A program made the position numbers and the translations under genes. A stretch of DNA of 44,943 nucleotides. It comes from Candidatus Uhrbacteria bacterium. GTDB taxonomy: Bacteria; Patescibacteriota; Patescibacteriia; UBA9934; UBA11717. Under the pieces are notes generated by a model. That model was given only the letters and a program-made list of their open reading frames with translations, searched no databases and was not told the origin of the DNA. The stretch is taken from NCBI GenBank assembly GCA_018701105.1, contig JABIWD010000050.1:1-44943 (forward strand). Reading direction: 5' to 3'. Positions 18,583-25,158 of the stretch are shown here, in pieces (the first letter of the stretch is position 1; each line of letters opens with the position of its first letter).

Positions 18583-18702
18583 TTTTCAATTTTGCAATTC
18601 GGCAATTTTCAATTTAATGTAGATCTTTTGTTGAATCTAGAAAACAATTAATAACTCTTCTATAAATTGCAAAATTGCCGAATTGCCGAATTGAAAATTT
18701 GT
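18583..18702. repeat. AT-rich inverted repeat family 3 (two arms)
   Basis: TTTTCAATTTTGCAATTCGGCAATTTTCAATTT and AAATTGCAAAATTGCCGAATTGCCGAATTGAAAATTT. Confidence 0.75.
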
Positions 18703-23729: not shown

Positions 23730-23749
23730 TTGTGTCAATTGACACAACA
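23730..23749. promoter_or_regulatory. 20-bp perfect palindrome overlapping divergent -35 elements
   Basis: GTTGTGTCAATTGACACAAC; TTGACA on both strands, each about 17 bp from TATATT (+) and TAGGAT (-). Confidence 0.65.
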
Positions 23750-23774
23750 AGCTTTTCCTGCTATATTCCAGTGT

Positions 23775-23890
23775 GAGCGCAGCGAAATGGATGAGATTTG
23801 CGTGAAGGCCCGAGGAGCGAAGTAAGTAGTATCTTTATACTACGTCGAGCACCGCAGGGACTGAACGCAAAGGTCGCCATTTCGCCAGCG
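23775..23890 (+). ncRNA. Candidate structured leader RNA 5' of tRNA-Arg
   Basis: Nested stems GCGAAATGG(23782)/CCATTTCGC(23877), TTTGCGT(23797)/ACGCAAA(23865), GTAGTAT(23826)/ATACTAC(23837). Confidence 0.55.
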
Positions 23891-23895
23891 AACGC

Positions 23896-23972
23896 GCCTT
23901 GGTAGCTCAACTGGATAGAGCAGGAGGGTTCTAACCTCAAGGTTGCAGGTTCGAGTCCTGCCCGAGGCACCA
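23896..23972 (+). tRNA. tRNA-Arg (anticodon TCT)
   Basis: GCCTTGGTAGCTCAACTGGATAGAGCAGGAGGGTTCTAACCTCAAGGTTGCAGGTTCGAGTCCTGCCCGAGGCACCA. Confidence 0.92.
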
Positions 23973-24059
23973 CCGAGTTTAGGTCGATCGCTTATGCAAC
24001 ACCGGCGATCGAGATGAATTCGGTAGCAAAAAAATCAGCGCAAGCTGATTTTTCTGTTT

Positions 24060-24986
24060 CTACTTCTTCCTCTTCTTGTCGTGATGCTTTTTATGAATCT
24101 CTCGCAGATGTTTATTCGTAACGTGAGTGTAGATCTGCGTCGTAGTGATAGATGCGTGTCCGAGCATTGCCTGCACGGACCGAATGTCGGCTCCACCTCG
24201 CAACAGATCGGTAGCAAACGTATGACGCATAGTGTGCGGAGACACTTTCTTCGTGATCCCAGCCTTTCTTGTATGCTTGTCGACGATGCGCTGGATCGAT
24301 CGCGGCGTGAGATTAAGATCATCTCTCTTTCCCTTAGCGCGATCATGACTCACAAACATGTGCGGCGACATGTCCTGTCTCTTTTTCAAATATTTTTTCA
24401 CCGCATCCCGGGCTCGTTCACTCACGAACACGATTCGGTTCTTTCCACCTTTACCAAGCACTGTAAACTCATCGCGATCCAAGTTTACGCTCTCGATCTC
24501 AAGCCGCGCAAGCTCGGAAACTCGCAACCCAGTAGAGAACAGCATCTCCAGTATCGCCGAATCTCGCAAACTCACGAGGTTGTCACCACCCTTGAGTGGG
24601 GAATCGAGTAGTCGGAGCAACTCTTCCTCCTCTAGAAACTCAACCTGTCGCTCTGGATGCTTAGCAAGCTCGATCTTTTCCGGTGCGAGCGTCTTAATGT
24701 CACGCTTCGCCAAGTATTTTAGAAACGATCGTAGCGCAATCAAGTGATAGTTCTGCGTAGTAACCTTTGGAGCCTCTCCATCCCTTCCTTTTACATTACG
24801 ATTCATCCAAAGGCGGAACTTCCGCACCATCTCAAGCGTAATAGCGCCTGGTGCCGGATGTTTTGCCCAATCAAAGAAACGGCGAAGATAAAAATCATAG
24901 TTTCGCAGAGTCCGCTGGCTACGACCTTTCTCAATCTCGAGATGCTCGAGAAACTCAGTCAAAAGTTTTTCAATCTTGTTGACCAT
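24060..24986 (-). CDS. Tyrosine recombinase XerC/XerD-like
   Basis: LFSTGLRVSELARLE...SPHTMRHTFATDLLRGGADIRSVQAMLGHASITTTQIYTHV. Confidence 0.92.
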   Translation of the reverse strand: MVNKIEKLLTEFLEHLEIEKGRSQRTLRNYDFYLRRFFDWAKHPAPGAITLEMVRKFRLWMNRNVKGRDGEAPKVTTQNYHLIALRSFLKYLAKRDIKTLAPEKIELAKHPERQVEFLEEEELLRLLDSPLKGGDNLVSLRDSAILEMLFSTGLRVSELARLEIESVNLDRDEFTVLGKGGKNRIVFVSERARDAVKKYLKKRQDMSPHMFVSHDRAKGKRDDLNLTPRSIQRIVDKHTRKAGITKKVSPHTMRHTFATDLLRGGADIRSVQAMLGHASITTTQIYTHVTNKHLREIHKKHHDKKRKK

Positions 24987-25158
24987 GCCGGTATTATACG
25001 CCACATGTGGTTAATTTCAAATGGGCAATTCGGCAAATTTCAAATGAATTAATCAATGTTCCAATGAACCAACGGGCACGGTGGTTGTCAGACGATTGAC
25101 GACCCCTCTGTTTTATAGTAAGAAATCAGAAGGAAACCCAGGACAGCCAGGAGAGTAC

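Follow-up and report, generated by a model that had tools for sequence, protein, structure and literature searches.

The window analyzed here, a 45-kb stretch of 44,943 nucleotides from a Candidatus Uhrbacteria genome, contains a tRNA-Arg(TCT) gene (23896–23972, + strand) preceded by a strong promoter and a long hairpin. The promoter (23739–23767, + strand) consists of a -35 box TTGACA, a 17-nt spacer, and an extended -10 box TGC-TATATT, giving 11 of 12 consensus matches, and the orthologous tRNA-Arg site in the sister species has kept it. The predicted transcription start, at about 23774, is the left edge of the element, which begins about 7 nt past the -10 box. The leader between promoter and tRNA gene is filled by a 36-bp nested hairpin (23780–23888, + strand), whose last base pair lies 10 nt before the tRNA gene; together with its flanking arms (GAGCGCAG ... 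CAGCGAACGC) the element occupies 23775–23895 on the + strand, with its right end abutting the first base of the tRNA gene, which is its right-side neighbor and lies outside it. A terminator-like site follows at 24030–24053, downstream of the tRNA gene. In addition, a tyrosine-recombinase-like ORF, called by eye from the sequence, lies at 24060–25004 on the - strand and converges on tRNA-Arg(TCT).

The original prediction had described three nested stems in this leader, and all of them were found, namely an outer stem of 9 bp (23782–23790/23877–23885), a second stem of 7 bp (23797–23803/23865–23871), and an apical stem of 7 bp (23826–23832/23837–23843), all on the + strand. The 121-nt stretch has a folding energy of -50.8 kcal/mol, compared with -32 ± 3.3 kcal/mol in dinucleotide shuffles (z = -5.8; 0 of 200 shuffles as stable), and its minimum-energy fold adds further short helices and purine-rich internal loops to those stems (UGAA/UGAA and GA-GGAGC-GAA / GA-GCACC-GCA). 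Three loop modules can be distinguished on the + strand. Module A (AUGAGA, 23791–23796) lies opposite GGUCG at 23872–23876, a position at which most copies have GAUGAGA / AGAUCGC; module B (UGAA, 23803–23806) lies opposite UGAA at 23862–23865 with a tandem G.A geometry; and module C has a 5′ side (GAGGAGCGAAGUAA, 23812–23825), whose GGAGC forms a helix with GCACC that is interrupted by an A.A mismatch (the two being swapped to GCACC/GGAGC in other copies), and a 3′ side (CGAGCACCGCA, 23846–23856). The apical hairpin itself is GUAGUAU-CUUU-AUACUAC (23826–23843). A search against Rfam 15 returned no family for the window hairpin at the gathering threshold or even at E ≤ 1, the ribozyme families included, which bears out the earlier impression that it belongs to no recognized class. 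None of the observations hinted at self-cleavage.

The same DNA recurs in the window's own genome before tRNA-Leu(TAA) (98% identical) and before tRNA-Ile(GAT) (81%), and the sister species carries three copies at the same three tRNAs (tRNA-Arg, tRNA-Leu(TAA), and tRNA-Ile(GAT)). In what follows, G000 denotes the own genome, G001 the sister species, and other G numbers relatives. The flanks GAGCGNAG ... AAGCGAAC are common to the window copy, the tRNA-Leu(TAA) copy of G000, and several G001 copies. A covariance model, R1, was built from 10 full copies from five genomes; it scored the hairpin core (23780–23888, + strand) at 114.6 bits (E = 1.4e-28) and the opposite strand at 23 bits only. With filters off, and with the element and its reverse strand set aside, the next-best match in the window reached 15.8 bits. 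This match, an AT-rich stretch at 18591–18688 upstream of tRNA-His, scored weakly on both strands (15.8 and 11.5 bits) and is perhaps a decayed copy or an unrelated hairpin.

R1 gave 4 matches in the own genome and matched 57 of the 73 genomes of the window's order (Uhrbacteria) at E ≤ 0.01, with up to 36 copies per genome, low-scoring matches being less sure family members as a structure model of this kind favors any long hairpin. With the own order included, matches were found in 33 of 288 genomes of a class sample at 1e-4 and in 18 of 337 genomes of a phylum sample at 1e-6, and they were sporadic outside the own order. The exact core pattern was also found in GTDB genomes of Uhrbacteria, Moraniibacteriota, Yanofskybacteria, an unclassified Patescibacteria MAG, and one Methanoculleus MAG contig. 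The last (L058; MAG SM3-B2, JAHDQM010000001) carries two tandem exact matches on an archaeon-assigned contig that is perhaps mis-binned. An Rfam scan of the relatives' loci returned matches to tRNA, tmRNA, and rRNA only, phage and plasmid records gave no match to the element, and no description of such an element was found in the open-licence literature, most subscription journals and preprints lying outside this search. The elements, about 110–130 nt long and each forming as a whole one imperfect hairpin, make up a previously uncatalogued family found in many Patescibacteria.

For covariation analysis, 54 diverse copies were chosen by score only, aligned by sequence only with MAFFT, and folded de novo. 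The fold of this alignment comprised 35 predicted pairs, 33 of them with pair-keeping changes on both sides. When the window-copy structure was used as the reference for the same copies, 93.4% of cells were able to pair compared with 67.0% in shuffles, double changes occurred in 482 cells compared with 139, and 33 of the 36 pairs covaried; sliding the partner by one column reduced pairing to about 34%. The stems vary, the sequence of the outer 5′ arm being almost free among copies yet complementary to its partner, and the internal-loop residues A34, A46, and A77 occur in all 54 rows and A42 in 53. The two A's of the mismatch inside GGAGC/GCACC are present in 51 and 47 of the 54 rows, and the helix around it appears as GGAGC/GCACC, GCACC/GGAGC, GGACC/GGACC, GGAAC/GTACC, and GCAGC/GCAGC; the count of helix types required pairing and the A.A, and the evidence was drawn from the unselected alignment only. 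Furthermore, G.U cells (152) far outnumber A.C cells (19), as they do without three wobble-rich columns (69 compared with 19), indicating that the + strand, which is the transcribed one here, is the folding strand. Folding energies point the same way, being lower for the + strand in 13 of the 14 copies tested. The original proposal of a discrete structured RNA element is thus upheld, the element covarying strongly and belonging to no Rfam class; neither of the outcomes named beforehand as refuting it (an Rfam match or a lack of covariation) was obtained.

Placement was surveyed over 140 distinct matches in loci fetched by model score, in which tRNA or tmRNA genes within 150 nt were counted. 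Such a gene adjoined 59 of the 140 copies, on the right (3′) side in 56 of these and 4–15 nt from the model end in 55. In 43 of the right-side copies the gene was on the same strand, with the element before its 5′ end, and in 13 it was on the opposite strand, with the right end of the element against its 3′ end. Left-side genes were seen for three copies only, at 52, 55, and 121 nt, and none came within 50 nt of the left end. This polarity was not built into the survey, because R1 carries no information on neighbors. Among other copies, some had their right end 9–13 nt ahead of a protein-gene start (clpB and mraZ, each in two genera, and rpmA), and others approached the stop codon of an opposite-strand gene to within about 15 nt, many stop codons being abutted; the protein-gene neighbors were called by simple ORF finding and named from reading N-termini, both of which are rougher. 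Sites common to species were tRNA-Arg(TCT), tRNA-Leu(TAA), tRNA-Ile(GAT), tRNA-Phe, tRNA-Leu(TAG) at its 3′ side, tmRNA, clpB, and mraZ.

Two arrangements among these sites may be described separately. At clpB (L030 and L099) and mraZ (L038 and L165), where the placement is common to genera, about 9–13 nt separate the element from the start codon, and a Shine-Dalgarno sequence is not obvious. At a tRNA-Arg(CCT) gene (L232; G025:C1), the gene stands between two elements whose right ends both point towards it, and the arms of the 3′ element overlap the ACCA end. When the sequence to the left of the copies was searched for a promoter of their own at a constant spacing, no clear -10 peak emerged. 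A tRNA-Arg-specific or amino-acid-specific regulator was rejected, as copies accompany tRNA genes of many specificities as well as tmRNA, 23S, and protein genes. With regard to co-transcription with the tRNA, the original prediction stands as one drawn from promoter position, but not as the recognition of a special tRNA leader, since the same element precedes many different tRNAs, tmRNA, clpB, mraZ, and rpmA, lies antisense to tRNAs at their 3′ ends, follows stop codons, and in one subfamily (described below) is a transposable element.

Some of these results would agree with a functional cis-acting RNA. In such a reading the folded leader would attract an RNase or an RNA-binding protein, or protect the 5′ end of the transcript, and would in this way control how the downstream tRNA or mRNA is processed or how stable it is; copies would have spread as useful ones. 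The compensatory changes with invariant loops, the joint conservation of promoter, element, and tRNA in G000 and G001, the sites common to genera at clpB, mraZ, and tRNA-Leu(TAG), and the consistent distance from right end to genes all speak for such a role, and the covarying fold is on the transcribed strand at the window copy and at the 43 copies before RNA genes. However, for about one-fifth of the RNA-gene-adjacent copies (13 of 59) the gene is on the opposite strand, and at these tRNA and tmRNA 3′ ends its transcript carries the poorly folding complement; moreover, most relatives' tRNA-Arg(TCT) genes have no recognizable element, and there is neither gene nor amino-acid specificity. As an account of the family, a cis-acting function is possible but doubtful.

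Evidence of mobility was obtained from G043, which has 24 matches to a related variant sharing the outer loop modules and having a different apex. A perfect 7-bp target-site duplication surrounds 12 of these 24 copies (e.g., AAACTTA, TGATATA, and TAAATAA) and an imperfect one several more, and this subfamily, which is without the GGAGC/GCACC core and not flush with genes, is a transposable element. At its loci (L190–L213) the 131-bp hairpin transposon has the terminal bases CC..GA or TC..GG, which are mutual reverse complements relative to the constant interior, and the interior may flip relative to the ends. No autonomous long relative was found among the 24 pattern matches in G043, the ends lying 126–127 bp apart where both were found, apart from one at 260 bp and five without a second end nearby. 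No target-site duplication is visible at the window copy or at the tRNA-Lys copy described below, and the G043 subfamily is the only one with clear duplications. That the G043 variant shares an ancestor with the leader copies is suggested by the GATGAGA/GATCGC and UGAA/UGAA modules and the hairpin architecture that they have in common, rather than by a tree. Like miniature inverted-repeat transposable elements, the elements are short, non-coding, multicopy (up to 36 matches per genome), and paired at their outer arms.

Comparison of orthologous sites revealed both empty and occupied states. The spacer between tRNA-Arg(TCG) and the following tRNA-Lys(CTT) is an empty site in G000 (1 nt) and in G002 (about 10 nt), and in G004 about 210 nt lie between the two genes, with a full element flush with tRNA-Lys and an apparent decayed copy on its left. 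Similarly, tRNA-Arg(TCT) begins only 8 nt past the -10 box of a promoter of the same type in G003 and after a leader of about 35 nt in G002 and G004, in each case with no element. Apparent decayed copies also lie left of intact ones at tRNA-Phe, at tRNA-Ile of G001, and at tRNA-Arg(CCT) of G029, and such older remnants count further against the cis-acting reading. The tRNA-Arg and tRNA-Leu copies within the own genome are 98% identical, whereas those of G000 and G001 are about 80% identical, indicating recent copying or conversion between sites. At another locus (L139; G043:C77), an intact tRNA-Thr is preceded by two elements that have a truncated tRNA-Thr, its 5′ part, between them, as if the tRNA 5′ end had been copied by insertion or duplication.

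A helper for this mobility was sought among Y1/RAYT transposases, reverse transcriptases, and TnpB in genomes of the order, and none of the three tracks element number; absence from a draft genome is weak evidence singly, but the pattern holds across several genomes that are 96–100% complete. Y1 transposases (PF01797) are common in the order, and this and the dispersed extragenic hairpins recall a REP/REPIN element moved by a Y1 transposase (RAYT). However, PF01797 and element counts disagree across the 73 genomes, Y1 genes being missing from the own genome and from the element-rich G014, G018, G033, G044, and G056, while their numbers peak in the element-free G037, G009, G040, and G046; there are exceptions, G043 for example having both. 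A REP/RAYT element was rejected on this distribution, which leaves the idea scarcely credible. A SINE-like element retrotransposed by a reverse transcriptase would be in line with the conserved strand being the RNA-competent one, and the target-site duplications and tRNA-edge placement recall tRNA-targeting retroelements; against this, the element-rich G014, G018, G032, and G033 and the own genome G000 have no match to a reverse-transcriptase domain, and the duplication length is constant at 7 bp. A reverse-transcriptase-borne element was accordingly rejected as a candidate, and we consider retrotransposition of this kind very improbable.

The constant orientation of the right end towards the 5′ or 3′ ends of tRNAs and towards start or stop codons, together with a folded + strand bearing conserved loops, could also reflect RNA-guided homing, with the element as a guide-RNA scaffold, the gene sequence 3′ of it as the guide, and copies persisting where that flank is conserved, hence the right end facing the gene. 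The omega-RNA of TnpB is a structured RNA that adjoining genomic sequence could follow, which is the likeness here; the difference is that TnpB is nearly absent from the Uhrbacteria order, TnpB/Cas12f-like zinc-ribbon proteins occurring in 2 of the 73 genomes. A TnpB-guided element was rejected on that count, and with no nuclease partner found (TnpB being the guide system covered), RNA-guided homing is improbable.

Taken together, the family is multicopy, covarying, and strand-specific, with near-invariant loops and a polarity towards RNA genes, and transposition has occurred in at least one subfamily. Our preferred explanation, to which we assign a probability of roughly 0.6, places the hairpin in a dispersed family of mobile elements that are non-autonomous, show a polarity at gene boundaries, and in places have possibly been exapted. 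A putative helper would recognize the loops of the folded + strand, in the form of single-stranded RNA or DNA, and insertion would be steered to gene edges, or copies would survive only there; insertion at such edges should harm little, because tRNA leaders and trailers are removed in maturation and the 3′ UTR is dispensable. In the case of the window copy, insertion would have occurred between the transcription start and the 5′ end of tRNA-Arg(TCT); the hairpin is then expected at the head of the transcript and would make up essentially the whole tRNA-Arg leader, presumably cut off by RNase P. Weighing against this explanation are the lack of a helper among the Y1/RAYT, reverse-transcriptase, and TnpB proteins, the confinement of clear target-site duplications to the G043 subfamily, and the signs of selection on some copies described next.

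A role in cis may have been acquired by some of the copies that different genera retain at the same site. The tRNA-Phe elements of G002 and G004 differ at one position, in a pair-preserving manner, whereas their left flanks show several differences and gaps; this favors constraint, within the limits of a single comparison. The change at tRNA-Phe, together with retention between species at clpB, mraZ, tRNA-Leu(TAG), and tRNA-Phe, suggests selection on some copies. A more far-reaching and distinctly tentative proposal is that the family represents a new structured RNA class of Patescibacteria that moves as a folded single strand and also acts at gene boundaries, its right end being placed next to tRNA and protein genes by a putative machinery that recognizes its non-canonical loops, and would be a bacterial counterpart of the tRNA-targeting elements in compact eukaryotic genomes.

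Patescibacteria genomes are tiny and gene-dense, and to our knowledge little is known about the repeats that they tolerate. If the preferred explanation is true, a mobile hairpin family with loop conservation and strict polarity at tRNA, tmRNA, clpB, and mraZ would be an unannotated feature of many Patescibacteria genomes and would account for unusual tRNA leaders. It would also offer a test of whether tRNA-edge safe havens have arisen in bacteria as in amoebae and yeast, and, given the conserved loops, a dedicated binding protein is predicted, which could be searched for directly.

Among known systems, REPIN/RAYT elements (PMC3116915) resemble the family in being dispersed extragenic hairpins with tandem clusters, decayed remnants, and no gene of their own. 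REPINs depend on RAYTs (PMC3116915), whereas the Patescibacteria family has no Y1/RAYT association and consists of one long hairpin with loop modules instead of two inverted REPs. The retrotransposons TRE5, TRE3, DGLT-A, and Ty3 of Dictyostelium and yeast find safe havens beside tRNA genes, upstream or downstream, and one tRNA-targeting family inserts about 4 bp upstream of them (PMC5006619). The likeness to these elements is placement beside tRNA genes in compact genomes, but they are eukaryotic, kilobase-sized, and equipped with their own enzymes, while the Patescibacteria element is 0.1 kb long and has no known enzyme. The nearest kind is represented by ERIC, NEMIS (Correia), and QMITE2, which are extragenic, multicopy sequences of about 100–160 bp that form long stem-loops on transcription and are flanked by short target-site duplications, the direct repeats of QMITE2 being 7–9 bp (PMC2229807, PMC10969869). 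A word search of these two papers found tRNA unmentioned in both and Patescibacteria unmentioned in PMC10969869. Size, extragenic and multicopy occurrence, stem-loop folding, possible co-transcription with genes, and, in the G043 subfamily, short duplications are features in common with ERIC, NEMIS, and QMITE2. In contrast to them, the constant part of the Patescibacteria family is its internal loops and not terminal repeats, its arms vary with compensation, and it keeps a fixed polarity beside tRNA genes while spanning many genera of a phylum.
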